In this document: positions 5,699 through 11,783 of the stretch, piece after piece
Layout of the letters: every line of letters begins with the position of its first letter
How positions within the stretch are numbered: the stretch's first letter is position 1
Assembly: GCF_014192515.1 (NCBI RefSeq)
Contig: NZ_JACHYB010000001.1
Location: 2,046,001-2,110,000 of the forward strand
Direction: 5' to 3'
DNA length: 64,000 nt
DNA from: Microbacter margulisiae
Lineage (GTDB): Bacteria > Bacteroidota > Bacteroidia > Bacteroidales > Paludibacteraceae
Notes under the pieces: generated by a model
Told to the model about the DNA's origin: nothing
Seen by the model: only the letters and a program-made list of their open reading frames with translations
Databases searched by the model: none
Made by a program: the position numbers and the translations under genes

Positions 5699-5764
5699 CA
5701 ATTCAATTTTCAGAGCTAATGAGCTGTATATTTATGGATAGTGTTTAATCTAAAACAAGAAAAA

Positions 5765-6628
5765 ATGAAAAAAATCAGTATCGTAATGTCCATCGGTTTG
5801 GCTTTAATCCTTACCATGTCGTCATGTCAAAACCAGAAAACTGTTACATTAAAAACCCAATTGGACAGTTTAAATTACGCTTTTGGGGTACTTAACGGAC
5901 CGCAAGTAAAAGCATATTCTTTGCAGGGAGATACATCTACTAAAGCTGTCGATGCCTTTATCGAAGGATTTGAAAAAGGTTTAGGTTCAAAAGACAAACA
6001 TCTTGCACAATATGCAACCGGTTTGAATATTGGCGCTGCATTAAGAAAACAAGCAAAAGCCGGTCTACTCGGAGACAGCACATTGACCATGAATCTTGAC
6101 TTAATCAAGGCTGGTTTGTTCGCTGCAATGAAAGAAAAAGGCGTACAAATGAAACCTGAAGTTGCTGAAGCATTTTTCCGCGCTACAATGGAAAAATACC
6201 ATCAGGAAAAAATGAAAAAACAATTTGGTGCAAACCTGGCAGCCGGTCAAAAATTCCTGGCTGACAACAAAACAAAACCGGGTGTAATCACTTTACCTGA
6301 CGGTTTGCAATATCAAATTCTGAAAAAAGGCAATGGCCCTACTCCAAAAGCAACTGATCGGGTACAGGTTAACTACAAAGGCACTTTGATTGACGGAACT
6401 GTATTTGACAGCAACGATGGCAAAGCTCCTGTATCATTCGAGGTTGATCAGGTGATCAAAGGCTGGACAGAAGCATTACAACTGATGCCTGTAGGCTCAA
6501 AATGGAGACTCTTTGTACCTCAGGATTTAGCATACCAAGATCAGGACAGAGGCGTTATCAAACCTTTCTCAACTTTGATTTTTGACATTGAATTGGTTGG
6601 TATTGCTCAACCACAAACTGCAAAATAA
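5765..6628 (+). CDS. FKBP-type peptidyl-prolyl cis-trans isomerase lipoprotein (FkpA/Mip-like)
   Basis: The enzyme catalyses cis-trans isomerisation of prolyl bonds and helps folding of envelope proteins. The ATG at 5765 is preferred over an in-frame GTG 24 bp upstream because it starts directly with a lipoprotein signal (MKKISIVMSIGLALI...TMSSC, lipid-modified Cys in the SSC lipobox). An N-terminal FKBP dimerisation region (about 25-140, DSLNYAFGVLNG) is followed by the catalytic FKBP domain (about 170-280) with VNYKGTLIDGTVFDSN, VIKGWTEALQLMPVGS and LIFDIELVGI. It is about 287 residues long, normal for the family. It is a single transcription unit, with a -7 box upstream and a strong terminator downstream. 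Family call is firm; the client proteins are unknown. Confidence 0.95.
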   Translation: MKKISIVMSIGLALILTMSSCQNQKTVTLKTQLDSLNYAFGVLNGPQVKAYSLQGDTSTKAVDAFIEGFEKGLGSKDKHLAQYATGLNIGAALRKQAKAGLLGDSTLTMNLDLIKAGLFAAMKEKGVQMKPEVAEAFFRATMEKYHQEKMKKQFGANLAAGQKFLADNKTKPGVITLPDGLQYQILKKGNGPTPKATDRVQVNYKGTLIDGTVFDSNDGKAPVSFEVDQVIKGWTEALQLMPVGSKWRLFVPQDLAYQDQDRGVIKPFSTLIFDIELVGIAQPQTAK

Positions 6629-6681: not shown

Positions 6682-6924
6682 TATGTCCGGCGGAATTATT
6701 TTCGAAAAAAGCAGGAGGCTGCCATCATGACATTGTATATGAAGGGAACCGATGCATGATTTCCGGATTCTTCCCTTGGTCCATTCTCCAGTCTGAATTA
6801 AGGTCCATGCTCCGAGTGCTAAAACATGCCTTTGTCCATTGCGTTGCCAACAAAAAAACATACAAAAAAGCAAAACCATGATTGTATATAAATCGCATAT
6901 CAGAGTTTTATACACAAAAATGCT

Positions 6925-8374
6925 GGTAGTGTCCAAAAATTTGTGTAAACGCATTCTTATCTCATTTATTATTATTTTTTCTTTTCGAATCCCCTCTCAA
7001 AATTTTTGAGGGGTTTGAAAAGAAAAAACTTCCGTTTTTATTTTATTCTTAAACTAGTGTCACTAATATTTGCTCTATCAGGATATAAAATCATAAACTG
7101 ATTGGCAATCAATGGCCAGTTGGAAACTTTTGCACTCCAAGATATTGAGGCTTGTTGGATCGCCAGATACACTGCTTTTTTCATTGCCTGATCATCAGGA
7201 AACATCAATTTATTTTTGGTGTATTTGCGTATGCTTCGATTTAGATTTTCAATCACATTAGTGGTATAGATAATCTTTCGTATTTCGGCTGGATAGGTAA
7301 AATAGGCTGTCAGATTTTCCCAATTTGCAATCCAGGATTTAATGGCATAAGGATATTTCTCTCCCCATTTAGTTTCCAATTCAGCAAAAGCTTCCCCAGC
7401 AGCATCTAAGTTTCGGGCCTGATACACTTGTTGAAGATCATGCATAAAACTCCGTTTTTCCTTTGTCCCAATATAGTTCATCGTGTTTCTTATCTGATGA
7501 ACAATACATAATTGTGTTACTGTTTCCGGAAACACAGCCTGAATAGCCTGGGTTAGCCCTTTCAGATTATCTGAACAGGCAATTAAAATATCTTTCACCC
7601 CTCGTTTCTTCAAATCATCCAACACGTTCATCCAAAATGAAGCCGATTCAGTTTCATTGATCCACATACTAATAACTTCTCTATGTCCATTGGTATTTAA
7701 ACCGATAATCAGATAAACGCTTTTACTTATTATCTTACCTCCTGAACGAACTTTGATACGAATACCATCTAACCAAACAATCAGATAAGTATCATCCAAT
7801 GGACGGGTTTGCCAGGCTTCTACATCGCTCATTACCTGATCTGTGATATTGGATATGGACGAAGAACTGATAGTGACACCATAAATGTCTTTTATCTGAG
7901 CTTCTATGTCACGAGTCGACATGCCTCGTGCATACAAAGAAATCACAACGCTTTCTATCTTGTCTATTACTTTTTGACGCTTGGGCAAAACGATGGGATT
8001 AAACTCACCCTGACGATCGCGGGGAACCTCTATAATTATTTCTCCACTACTGCTCTTTACTAACTTGCGGGTTTTTCCATTACGAGAGTTCCCACTGCCA
8101 TTTCCTTTGACTGAGTGCTTGTCGTAGCCAAGATGTTCGCTCAACTCACTTTCTAACATCTTTTCTACTCCCCGCTTAAATAGCTTATCCATAAAACCAT
8201 TTATGTCTTGCATGGTCTTGAAACCCTTGAAAAAATCTGTTGGTAACTGGGAGAAAAGTGCCTCATCTTCTGCACTCAATTTTGATAATACTGATTTCTG
8301 CTTTTTCATGTCCTTTTTTTTCTGTTATAAAAATAAGCATTTATTTCTATTTACACAGTTTTTTGGACGGTCTC
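6925..8374 (-). mobile_element. IS256-family insertion sequence, copy 1 (1450 bp)
   Basis: The element runs from GGTAGTGTCC to GGACGGTCTC. The ends are imperfect inverted repeats: inner parts GTCCAAAAATTTGTGTAAA and, on the other strand at the right end, GTCCAAAAAACTGTGTAAA. It is flanked by an 8-bp target duplication AAAATGCT (6917-6924 and 8375-8382). It contains one transposase gene on the minus strand. It appears nucleotide-identical to copy 2, which lies only 29 bp away, so transposition was recent. The 8-9 bp duplications fit the IS256 family. Confidence 0.93.
7038..8309 (-). CDS. IS256-family (mutator-type) transposase, copy 1
   Basis: The 423-residue protein is a DDE transposase of the mutator/IS256 group. 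The catalytic aspartates are visible in LIVWLDGIRIKVRSGG and in LIACSDNLKGLTQAIQ, and the glutamate in TTNVIENLNRSIRKYTKNK. The downstream CIVHQIRNTMNYI motif is typical of the family. An N-terminal part with ESELSEHLGYDKH and a Gly/Asn-rich stretch is the usual DNA-binding region. The frame is complete and identical in protein sequence to the copy at 8517-9788, so the element is probably active. It lies inside the element at 6925-8374. Confidence 0.96.
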   Translation of the reverse strand: MKKQKSVLSKLSAEDEALFSQLPTDFFKGFKTMQDINGFMDKLFKRGVEKMLESELSEHLGYDKHSVKGNGSGNSRNGKTRKLVKSSSGEIIIEVPRDRQGEFNPIVLPKRQKVIDKIESVVISLYARGMSTRDIEAQIKDIYGVTISSSSISNITDQVMSDVEAWQTRPLDDTYLIVWLDGIRIKVRSGGKIISKSVYLIIGLNTNGHREVISMWINETESASFWMNVLDDLKKRGVKDILIACSDNLKGLTQAIQAVFPETVTQLCIVHQIRNTMNYIGTKEKRSFMHDLQQVYQARNLDAAGEAFAELETKWGEKYPYAIKSWIANWENLTAYFTYPAEIRKIIYTTNVIENLNRSIRKYTKNKLMFPDDQAMKKAVYLAIQQASISWSAKVSNWPLIANQFMILYPDRANISDTSLRIK

Positions 8375-8382
8375 AAAATGCT

Positions 8383-8403
8383 TACAAACATTGATGAATT
8401 TCG
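8383..8403. repeat. Single 21-bp repeat unit trapped between the two IS copies
   Basis: The 21 bp between the target duplication of copy 1 and the start of copy 2 (TACAAACATTGATGAATTTCG) is one unit of the array that continues at 9854. Removing both elements rejoins it in register with the next unit, TACAAACATCGAGTCATTTCG. Its last 9 bp are the left target duplication of copy 2. Confidence 0.8.
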
Positions 8404-9853
8404 GGTAGTGTCCAAAAATTTGTGTAAACGCATTCTTATCTCATTTATTATTATTTTTTCTTTTCGAATCCCCTCTCAAAATTTTTGAGGGGTTTGAAAA
8501 GAAAAAACTTCCGTTTTTATTTTATTCTTAAACTAGTGTCACTAATATTTGCTCTATCAGGATATAAAATCATAAACTGATTGGCAATCAATGGCCAGTT
8601 GGAAACTTTTGCACTCCAAGATATTGAGGCTTGTTGGATCGCCAGATACACTGCTTTTTTCATTGCCTGATCATCAGGAAACATCAATTTATTTTTGGTG
8701 TATTTGCGTATGCTTCGATTTAGATTTTCAATCACATTAGTGGTATAGATAATCTTTCGTATTTCGGCTGGATAGGTAAAATAGGCTGTCAGATTTTCCC
8801 AATTTGCAATCCAGGATTTAATGGCATAAGGATATTTCTCTCCCCATTTAGTTTCCAATTCAGCAAAAGCTTCCCCAGCAGCATCTAAGTTTCGGGCCTG
8901 ATACACTTGTTGAAGATCATGCATAAAACTCCGTTTTTCCTTTGTCCCAATATAGTTCATCGTGTTTCTTATCTGATGAACAATACATAATTGTGTTACT
9001 GTTTCCGGAAACACAGCCTGAATAGCCTGGGTTAGCCCTTTCAGATTATCTGAACAGGCAATTAAAATATCTTTCACCCCTCGTTTCTTCAAATCATCCA
9101 ACACGTTCATCCAAAATGAAGCCGATTCAGTTTCATTGATCCACATACTAATAACTTCTCTATGTCCATTGGTATTTAAACCGATAATCAGATAAACGCT
9201 TTTACTTATTATCTTACCTCCTGAACGAACTTTGATACGAATACCATCTAACCAAACAATCAGATAAGTATCATCCAATGGACGGGTTTGCCAGGCTTCT
9301 ACATCGCTCATTACCTGATCTGTGATATTGGATATGGACGAAGAACTGATAGTGACACCATAAATGTCTTTTATCTGAGCTTCTATGTCACGAGTCGACA
9401 TGCCTCGTGCATACAAAGAAATCACAACGCTTTCTATCTTGTCTATTACTTTTTGACGCTTGGGCAAAACGATGGGATTAAACTCACCCTGACGATCGCG
9501 GGGAACCTCTATAATTATTTCTCCACTACTGCTCTTTACTAACTTGCGGGTTTTTCCATTACGAGAGTTCCCACTGCCATTTCCTTTGACTGAGTGCTTG
9601 TCGTAGCCAAGATGTTCGCTCAACTCACTTTCTAACATCTTTTCTACTCCCCGCTTAAATAGCTTATCCATAAAACCATTTATGTCTTGCATGGTCTTGA
9701 AACCCTTGAAAAAATCTGTTGGTAACTGGGAGAAAAGTGCCTCATCTTCTGCACTCAATTTTGATAATACTGATTTCTGCTTTTTCATGTCCTTTTTTTT
9801 CTGTTATAAAAATAAGCATTTATTTCTATTTACACAGTTTTTTGGACGGTCTC
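8404..9853 (-). mobile_element. IS256-family insertion sequence, copy 2 (1450 bp)
   Basis: It has the same ends and length as copy 1, with GGTAGTGTCC on the left and GGACGGTCTC on the right. It is flanked by a 9-bp target duplication TGAATTTCG (8395-8403 and 9854-9862), which differs from that of copy 1, so the two copies inserted independently and did not arise by tandem duplication. The same orientation and only 29 bp of separation make recombination between them possible. Confidence 0.93.
8517..9788 (-). CDS. IS256-family (mutator-type) transposase, copy 2
   Basis: This is a second 423-residue transposase with the same protein sequence as the one at 7038-8309, including the catalytic Asp in LDGIRIKVRSGG, Asp in ACSDNLKGLTQ and Glu in NVIENLNRSIRKY. 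It is intact and lies inside the element at 8404-9853. As with the other copy, the start is an ATG about 65 bp from the right inverted repeat, leaving room for a promoter inside the element. Confidence 0.96.
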   Translation of the reverse strand: MKKQKSVLSKLSAEDEALFSQLPTDFFKGFKTMQDINGFMDKLFKRGVEKMLESELSEHLGYDKHSVKGNGSGNSRNGKTRKLVKSSSGEIIIEVPRDRQGEFNPIVLPKRQKVIDKIESVVISLYARGMSTRDIEAQIKDIYGVTISSSSISNITDQVMSDVEAWQTRPLDDTYLIVWLDGIRIKVRSGGKIISKSVYLIIGLNTNGHREVISMWINETESASFWMNVLDDLKKRGVKDILIACSDNLKGLTQAIQAVFPETVTQLCIVHQIRNTMNYIGTKEKRSFMHDLQQVYQARNLDAAGEAFAELETKWGEKYPYAIKSWIANWENLTAYFTYPAEIRKIIYTTNVIENLNRSIRKYTKNKLMFPDDQAMKKAVYLAIQQASISWSAKVSNWPLIANQFMILYPDRANISDTSLRIK

Positions 9854-10134
9854 TGAATTTCGTACAAACATCGAGTCATTTCGGTCAAGAAATGAATTAT
9901 TTCATACACGAAATAAAGCATTTCGTACAAGAAATGCGTCATTGCGTATACGAAACGGAAAATGTTGGCAAGAAATGAATCATTTTCGTATACCAATTGG
10001 TCATTACGTACATGAAATAGCTTATTTCGTACACGATATGCATCATTTCGTGTACGAAATGAACGAATGTGGACAAGAAAAGGATCATTGTGTGCATGAA
10101 ATTATCCATTTCATTAAAGCAATGGAACGTTGTT
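9854..10134. repeat. Tandem array of 21-bp palindromic repeats (about 13 units here)
   Basis: From 9863 onward the sequence falls into units of 21 bp (one of 20) with the idealised dyad CATTTCGTACACGAAATG centred on GTAC. Good units are 9905-9925, 9926-9946, 10009-10029, 10030-10050 and 10051-10071; the array decays toward 10134. The period equals seven codons and two helical turns. Because the unit is palindromic, both strands read a heptad like H-F-V-x-E-M-x, but the 20-bp unit changes the frame, so one continuous protein is unlikely. The array once extended left through 8383-8403 and probably to about 6905, before the two IS elements inserted. Function unknown. Confidence 0.85.
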
Positions 10135-10502: not shown

Positions 10503-11783
10503 ATGAGACGTTTACTAATAACATTTGGGTTCCTCTTGTTCAACTTCTATGCTGGCATACTTTTTGCTCATCCCTTCACCGTAACAATTGATGCAGGACA
10601 TGGAGGAAAAGATCCGGGAGCTATCGGATCTTTTGCACAGGAAAAAAATATTAATCTGGCCGTAGCATTAAAATTGGGAAAATTGATTCAAAAGAATTGT
10701 CCCGACGTGCGTGTGGTTTACACCCGGAAGACAGACATTTTTATTCCTTTGGAAGAACGGGCTATGATTGCAAATAATGCGCATTCAAATCTTTTTATTT
10801 GCATTCACACCAATTCATCGCCAAATCCGCATGTGACAGGAGCTGAAACATACGCTCTCGGATTAGCCAAAACGAAAGCCAATATGGATGTGGCCCGACG
10901 CGAAAACTCAGTTATTTTACTCGAAAACAATTATAAGGAGAAATATCAGGGATTTAACCCGAACTCGATTGATTCGTACATTATGTTTGAATATATGCAG
11001 GATAAATATATTGATCGCAGTATACAATTCGCATCAGATGTAGAAAATGAACTTACAGCCAACGCGAACCGCTCTAATCGTGGCGTCAGGCAGGCAGGTT
11101 TTTGGGTTCTTCATCAAACTTCAATGCCGGCTGTTCTGATCGAATTGGGGTATATCACGAATGAAAAGGAAGAGACTTACCTGACATCAAACAAGGGACA
11201 GAATCATTTGGCTGAATCCATATTCAAAGCGTTTCTTGAATTCAAACATGAATATGACCGCAAAACAAACAATCATTTTGTTGCCTCAACAGAAGAAAGT
11301 TCTCCCAGCGTGGCGGCAGATACCAGCAATAACAATGATACGGCTTCACAAAACCAGACCATAAAGGTTGACACGGTAAAACCTCAAAAAGAAATCAAAG
11401 AAGAGCCTGCACAAGCGCCCAAACATGAAACTCCAGCACAAAAACAGGTAGCAACGCCGCAGGTAACTCATTCCCAAACACTGGTTTCACAGGAAAGAAA
11501 GACGCAGGATGCCCCAATCTTTAAGATCCAGTTTCTGCTATCCAGTAAGAAGCTATCTTTAAACAATTCGCAGTTCAGGCATTTGCACCATGTCAGCTTT
11601 TATCAGGAAGATCATTGGTATAAATACACTGCCGGAGATACTTCCAACTATCGTCAGATCATTGCAGAACATCAAAAAATCAAAAAATTGTATCCTACCG
11701 CATTTGTGATTGCATTTGTGAATGATCATAAGATTCCATTAGAGGAAGCTATCCGGCTCTGGAGGGCAAATCAACAAAAATAA
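10503..11783 (+). CDS. N-acetylmuramoyl-L-alanine amidase (Amidase_3 family)
   Basis: This periplasmic zinc amidase cleaves the bond between N-acetylmuramic acid and L-alanine in peptidoglycan, usually for daughter-cell separation and remodelling. A signal peptide (residues 1-22, ending FAHP) precedes the Amidase_3 domain (about 25-250). Zinc and catalytic motifs are visible: TIDAGHGGKDPGA with the first His, NLFICIHTNSSP with the second His, and VLIELGYITNEKEE with the catalytic Glu. Residues 260-330 form a low-complexity Pro/Gln/Thr-rich linker, followed by a C-terminal domain (about 335-426) resembling a SPOR-like or uncharacterised cell-wall-binding region. An mlaD-like gene follows after 22 bp, a common Bacteroidetes arrangement that suggests co-transcription. 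Function is firm; the C-terminal domain is not identified. Confidence 0.93.
   Translation: MRRLLITFGFLLFNFYAGILFAHPFTVTIDAGHGGKDPGAIGSFAQEKNINLAVALKLGKLIQKNCPDVRVVYTRKTDIFIPLEERAMIANNAHSNLFICIHTNSSPNPHVTGAETYALGLAKTKANMDVARRENSVILLENNYKEKYQGFNPNSIDSYIMFEYMQDKYIDRSIQFASDVENELTANANRSNRGVRQAGFWVLHQTSMPAVLIELGYITNEKEETYLTSNKGQNHLAESIFKAFLEFKHEYDRKTNNHFVASTEESSPSVAADTSNNNDTASQNQTIKVDTVKPQKEIKEEPAQAPKHETPAQKQVATPQVTHSQTLVSQERKTQDAPIFKIQFLLSSKKLSLNNSQFRHLHHVSFYQEDHWYKYTAGDTSNYRQIIAEHQKIKKLYPTAFVIAFVNDHKIPLEEAIRLWRANQQK

Follow-up and report, generated by a model that had tools for sequence, protein, structure and literature searches.

The window analysed here (64,000 nucleotides of Microbacter margulisiae, contig NZ_JACHYB010000001.1, positions 2,046,001 to 2,110,000) contains two copies of an insertion sequence (IS) of the IS256 family, which we call IS-A, both of which entered the left end of a tandem array with a period of 21 bp. 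Seven of the nine IS-A copies in this genome lie within 176 bp of a 21-bp-period array, at six arrays. The association is specific to the lineage, being present for IS-A and absent for IS-B, a second element of the same genome; the arrays consist of mostly unrelated units, and the insertions have ordinary target duplications (TSDs) of 8-9 bp. It is probable that some IS256-family lineages insert preferentially into intergenic arrays of 21-bp (or doubled, 42-bp) units, or just outside their ends. As the unit differs from place to place, the data suggest that the element recognises the repetition, or its effect on the DNA, and not a given sequence.

The two elements in the window (Table 1) are 1450 bp long, show 0 mismatches to each other and have identical orientation. 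Their TSDs differ in sequence and in length, AAAATGCT (8 bp) at the first and TGAATTTCG (9 bp) at the second, so the insertions are independent; unequal exchange duplicating one insertion within the array is ruled out for the same reason. An earlier note on this DNA had claimed as much, and had placed the insertions in neighbouring units 21 bp apart. Our comparison of the cut sites agrees: the right TSD copies are followed by TACAAACATTG (insertion 1) and TACAAACATCG (insertion 2), and in the reconstructed empty site the right cuts are separated by 21 bp and share one phase within adjacent units. The further claim that both elements entered at the centre of a palindrome needs a qualification. 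The cuts are off the exact dyad centre, the nearer axis lying ~2 bp to the right of where the TSD ends; a second dyad axis, in the spacer, scores about equally, and the staggered cut spans the left half of the dyad. The array extends from position 8375 to ~10110 and is broken by the second IS.

A search of the genome with PF00872 identified 19 IS256-type transposases, nine belonging to IS-A and ten to IS-B. Arrays were detected at one fixed setting, as 84-bp windows in which 60% or more of the bases match at a lag of 21 or 42. By this measure, the distance from IS-A to the array is 0 bp for copies L001, L005 and L007, 7 bp for L010/L009, 31 bp for L002, 73 bp for L004 and 176 bp for L008. Reading the flanks block by block places the first clear units at the TSD in L001, L005 and L007. 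In six of the seven copies the array is located 5' of the transposase gene; in L010 it is 3' of it. Most IS-A copies are intergenic. The earlier note had proposed an inspection of all copies, and would have put the double hit down to chance if most others lay in unrelated sequence with no dyad; most of them do not lie in unrelated sequence.

The same detector found no array of period 21 or 42 within 1.5 kb of the two remaining copies, L003 and L006, and there is none at L011, a 44-bp remnant of an IS-A end. L003 and L006 (C2:962895-966669) are inverted copies separated by ~875 bp. The TSD CATTGATC occurs both in the left flank of L003 and in the right flank of L006, and these swapped duplications fit a recombination between the two copies that inverted the ~875-bp segment. 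The two remaining junctions show homology to the L002 array locus over 142 bp (89% identity), to within one base of the insertion point, and a second stretch of homology (50 bp at 90%) starts at position 493 of the L002 right flank. The junction may thus represent an insertion at a paralogue, on C2, of the L002 array flank, with the array since deleted; this is a reconstruction, and we do not include it in the count.

The property common to the arrays occupied by IS-A is their 21-bp period. Outside the window and L002, the units are unrelated: CTTACATTGTTACTATGTAAG at L004, ACCCCGGTATCTTTTTCCTTC at L007, CGTGCAGAAGCAATTTCCAGA at L008 and TGTTGCATCGCAACGAAAATG at L010. The window unit is not a genome-wide repeat. 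A search of the whole genome with the pattern CATTTCGTACANGAAATG, allowing up to 3 mismatches, returned 43 matches, 18 of which form two clusters, one being the window array and the other C1:2163147-2163310. The remaining 25, of which one has 2 mismatches and the others 3, are dispersed, compared with 19 for the reversed control pattern. IS-A copy L002 lies immediately upstream of the second of these clusters. Aligned over 244 bp, its array is 71% similar to that of the window, and the flanks of the two arrays show no similarity; a larger common element around the two arrays was rejected because of the unlike flanks.

To estimate the array background, 0.8 Mb of the same genome were sampled, non-coding DNA being defined by crude calling of open reading frames (ORFs). 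The sample contains three array loci with a best lag of 21 or 42, two with 41 or 43, and three with 11, 12 and 18, and 2.08% of its non-coding bases are within 200 bp of an array. The binomial chance of finding 7/9 copies near arrays is ~6e-11, or ~2e-9 for 6/8 if the window pair is counted once. Because the sampled stretches hold no IS-A copy, occupied arrays are missing from this background; we therefore repeated the calculation at three times the array density and obtained 1.2e-7 (7/9) and 1.5e-6 (6/8). IS-B resembles IS-A in belonging to the IS256 family, in its host, in having 8-bp TSDs and in a similar terminal motif (CTGTGT), but differs in its location: none of its nine non-nested copies is within 400 bp of an array (Fisher p ~0.002 versus IS-A). 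The tenth IS-B copy was set aside, as it is nested in an IS-A copy, L009/L010 (C1:1246116-1249088), which it splits with a TSD of TTTTTCTT. As a further control, none of 24 loci of PF01609 elements in this genome (cut from 51 matches) has an array in the 1.5 kb on each side of the domain.

A search at the level of the order found matches in 29 of 393 genomes, our own genome included; the relatives in the 28 others are 41-54% identical, and some of the loci are shortened by contig ends. Among the genomes examined further, G202 has eight full copies and four fragments. Six of the eight full copies (L239, L241, L242, L244, L245 and L247) are at arrays by the detector; in these six, all on the transposase-3' side, the first unit directly adjoins the TSD or IS end, and L239 is without a TSD. 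L243 has a two-unit array on its other side, below the detector threshold, which raises the count to 7/8 at lower stringency; L246 has no array. All four fragments are within 32 bp of an array. Given that 13.6% of the non-coding base pairs of G202 lie within 50 bp of an array, p amounts to 1.4e-4 for 6/8 and 6e-6 for 7/8. In G224, all four copies are beside arrays: one lies mid-array, another at an array edge, and the other two are nested in the end of a different IS that adjoins an array. Ten 20-kb stretches (200 kb) of the IS-bearing contigs of G224, away from the IS, contain no 21-series array. Arrays are also found at the only copy in G328, at the only copy in G305 (one flank available) and at one of the two copies in G403.

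Several observations weigh against a preference for arrays, or limit it. For our own genome, the array density was derived from three strict 21/42-bp arrays, found in 0.8 Mb. Copies L002, L004, L008 and L010 are outside any unit, at 7-176 bp by the detector and with the first clear units ~40-130 bp away. Two IS-B copies, L301 and L308, have 21-bp arrays in their surroundings (478 and 1044 bp away) without being at an edge, and a looser attraction to arrays may perhaps be shared by IS-B. One of six PF01609 loci in G202, where arrays abound, has an array within 1.5 kb. At the loci of other genomes found in the order-level search (~1.5 kb read), 21/42-bp arrays are present at only four of 28 (L155, L171, L178 and L179). 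Copies c and d of G224 sit in a duplicated segment, nested in another IS, and are not independent; the second G403 copy has no array. Nor is the association universal, as 0/4 copies in G172, 0/2 in G299 and 0/1 in G409 are at arrays.

The arrays themselves were sampled in 400 kb of G202 (20 stretches, L219-L238), with lags of 9-63 tested. All 28 array loci belong to the 21-bp series (best lags 21, 41-43 and 62), corresponding to ~70 per Mb, with a median length of 340 bp; 97% of their bases are outside long ORFs (ORFs made mostly of array were ignored). The unit sequences vary between arrays, as judged by eye. The mean base match is 0.46 at lag 21, 0.63 at 42 and 0.31 at 41; for the remaining lags between 3 and 44 it is 0.23-0.28. 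A sub-period of 10-11 bp is absent from these arrays. The 27 arrays with a gene on both sides are located between genes of the same direction (14), convergent genes (8) or divergent genes (5). No 21-series array was found in 200 kb of G172. Elsewhere, one order-level locus, L156, has a 23-bp array, and at L155 of G328 (positions 532-1476) two adjoining 21-bp arrays with partly similar units lie beside an IS-A relative with the TSD TTTAAACC. At L190 and L191 of G224, a 2.9-kb segment is duplicated with 96.6% identity, each copy ending at the array next to the nested IS.

How might an element find arrays of unrelated sequence? The transposase, or a host factor contacting it, could sense what the 21-bp period does to DNA, as opposed to a sequence. 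Candidate cues would be identical sites that recur on one face of the DNA at intervals of two helical turns, a coating of protein, or a barrier to replication or in topology. Insertions in the middle of an array would be expected to be rare among survivors, as the flanking repeats can delete them, and insertions at the edge would be stable. We tentatively extend this to a wider proposal, which may well not hold: that several IS256-family lineages of the Bacteroidales read the 21-bp period itself (two helical turns) irrespective of sequence and insert at the array boundary, with an array-binding protein or a stalled replication fork as a possible intermediary.

The last of these options, in which arrays stall forks and the IS enters the edge facing the fork, is a special case of the preferred reading and in our view a doubtful one. 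Fork direction was read from the GC and AT skew of the sampled stretches, and edges were counted by hand. Twelve of 16 placed insertions are on the origin-proximal edge (8/10 in G202, four of them fragments, and 4/6 arrays in our own genome), but this excess is not significant (two-sided binomial p 0.077). The own-genome count takes contig C2 to run in the opposite sense to C1, G202 L247 was left out because it is near the skew switch, and the positions of origin and terminus are rough.

The earlier note had interpreted the twin insertion as target selection for a repeated extragenic palindrome (REP). Selection is supported by the genome-wide count, but there is no single palindromic sequence. 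A more general version, that the transposase recognises palindromes as cruciforms or hairpins and strikes arrays because many of them are palindromic, strikes us as unlikely. Dyad symmetry reaches p<0.05 at eight of 16 tested insertion sites (the window being counted twice), including L002, L004 and G202 L241 and L247, and predicted folding exceeds that of shuffles in four of six IS-A arrays (z -4.3 for the window, -6.6 for L002, -6.0 for L004 and -14.4 for L010) and, strongly, in three of six IS-free arrays. Two occupied arrays have neither property, with no dyad excess (p 0.24 for L007, 0.97 for L008) and no excess of predicted folding (z -1.0 and +1.3, respectively), and there is no dyad excess in G224. 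The place of the TSD with respect to the dyad varies, and insertion follows the array or its edge, not the centre of a palindrome; no TSD sequence common to the insertions is apparent by eye. Homology-directed insertion, in which the IS ends would resemble array units, was likewise rejected: the ends of IS-A show no likeness to array units beyond that of shuffles (12 comparisons, lowest p 0.06).

Could the IS have made the arrays? Flanking DNA might be amplified from the IS end in steps of 21 bp, giving each array its own sequence starting at the TSD. This would account for the six G202 copies in which the array starts at the insertion point, with similarity one unit upstream at background level. 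It would also fit G403 L350, where an IS256 copy (TSD GCCGAGGT) lies between two different 21-bp arrays and another IS end borders the far side of one of them, as well as the finding that a genus mate of the window without IS-A, G001, has no 21-series array in 400 kb. We nevertheless consider such an origin quite unlikely. Of the 28 G202 arrays, 27 lack both an end of the G202 element and an IS256-type end core at their edge (the ends of other IS families were not searched), and the one array with an IS256-type end corresponds roughly to the rate at random places, 2.7%. Array-like units flank both sides of the insertion in G224a, in G224b, at the second insertion in the window and, weakly, in G202 L244, and several arrays begin tens of base pairs from the IS. 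We know of no mechanism for amplification in 21-bp steps. The 27 arrays without an IS256-type end, the units on both sides of some insertions and the IS-A copies located tens of bases away suggest that the arrays are targets, not products, of insertion.

Survivorship alone, with the IS inserting anywhere and lasting in dispensable intergenic DNA that happens to hold arrays, is very unlikely: the sampled G202 arrays and most IS-A copies are indeed intergenic, but the background was already restricted to non-coding DNA (2.1%), IS-B and the PF01609 elements are under equal selection and yet not at arrays, and the array starts exactly at the insertion point in six G202 copies.

To our knowledge, the repeat-homing IS described to date all follow a sequence, and a search of titles and abstract openings of open-licence PMC papers found no report of 21-bp arrays of unrelated sequence as IS targets. 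If an IS follows unrelated arrays of equal period, this would amount to another type of target choice and would provide a natural probe of array function. The repeated landing of IS at array edges suggests that something sets the arrays physically apart in the cell. Some known transposons home in on the neighbourhood of a repeated protein-binding site: the res-site hunters of the Tn5053 type aim a multi-protein module at resolvase sites. These rely on multi-gene machinery, whereas IS-A has a single IS256 transposase gene and is found at arrays of unrelated sequence.

REP-associated IS have been reported in five families, examples being IS1397, ISKpn1, IS621, ISPsy8, ISPa11, ISPpu9/10, ISRm22, ISRm19 and ISRm5 (Tobes and Pareja 2006, PMC1525189). 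According to that study, ISRm22 inserts at the axis of palindromy, and ISRm5, a type 2 element of the IS256 family, is near REPs, not inside them, in five of seven cases in Sinorhizobium meliloti (PMC1525189). IS-A resembles these elements in its concentration at intergenic repeats, and ISRm5 in its family. However, the REP-targeting IS, as described there, are associated with REPs canonical for the species, whereas each array at IS-A has its own sequence, the period is strictly 21 bp and entry is at or beside the edges (PMC1525189). The species-wide REP type that defines type 2 is not found here, as the units are without a consensus and the window unit is clustered at two places.

Another comparison is with BrickBuilt (MITE464/PgRS) of Porphyromonas gingivalis, intergenic tandem arrays of 23- or 41-bp units linked to the ends of mobile elements (Klein et al. 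2015, PMC4596501). The likeness to our arrays is that of intergenic tandem arrays in a member of the Bacteroidales (PMC4596501). BrickBuilt, a 23-bp array within an IS5-related miniature inverted-repeat transposable element, has one common 23-bp unit, a leader, a tail and IS5-type ends, and the part of the paper used here does not report it as an IS target (PMC4596501). Our arrays do not have this make-up: their period is 21, and the window and L002 arrays, with their similar units, lack any similarity in the flanks. We regard IS-A as a variant of repeat-directed IS insertion, the new aspect being arrays of unrelated sequence and equal period.

IS-A has the layout of the IS256 family, with a single transposase gene bounded by imperfect terminal inverted repeats (19 identities in the first 28 positions) in an element of 1450 bp; IS256-family elements measure ~1.3-1.5 kb. 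The transposase matches NF033543 (transpos_IS256) with 424 bits (cut-off 150) and PF00872 with 383.5 bits, and a putative motif of the DDE catalytic triad was recognised by eye. TSDs are 8 or 9 bp at eight insertion events in our own genome, one of them split over L003 and L006 (those in the window were checked by script); one junction pair is without a TSD. A protein search returned, among the matches listed, at least 7993 relatives at E 1e-60 or better. In a tree of transposases, the array-associated rows are scattered over separate groups; the row labelled IS-B in that tree is an IS-A piece from L012, and the tree does not place IS-B.

Table 1. Features of the window around the twin IS-A insertion.
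Feature	Positions	Strand	Remarks
Gene left of the array	5741..6628	+	Presumably FKBP-type peptidyl-prolyl isomerase-like
TSD 1, left copy	6917..6924		AAAATGCT
IS-A copy 1	6925..8374	- (transposase strand)	IS256 family, 1450 bp
Transposase gene, copy 1	7038..8309	-	423 aa
TSD 1, right copy	8375..8382
Rest of the array unit separating the insertions	8383..8394
TSD 2, left copy	8395..8403		TGAATTTCG
IS-A copy 2	8404..9853	-	Identical to copy 1
Transposase gene, copy 2	8517..9788	-	423 aa
TSD 2, right copy	9854..9862		Within the first array unit on that side
21-bp-period tandem array	9854..10110		Consensus near TCATTTCGTACAAGAAATGAA, dyad-symmetric; both IS entered its left end
Gene right of the array	10503..11783	+	Presumably N-acetylmuramoyl-L-alanine amidase-like; matched in 7/7 genus mates

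The product names of the two flanking genes are presumed from their sequences. Upstream of the amidase-like gene in the genus mates, no array was seen by eye at the seven loci, some of which have a different gene order or a short contig. The single Rfam match between positions 6000 and 10600 (24.4 bits, against a gathering score of 37) is located at a terminator-like hairpin.

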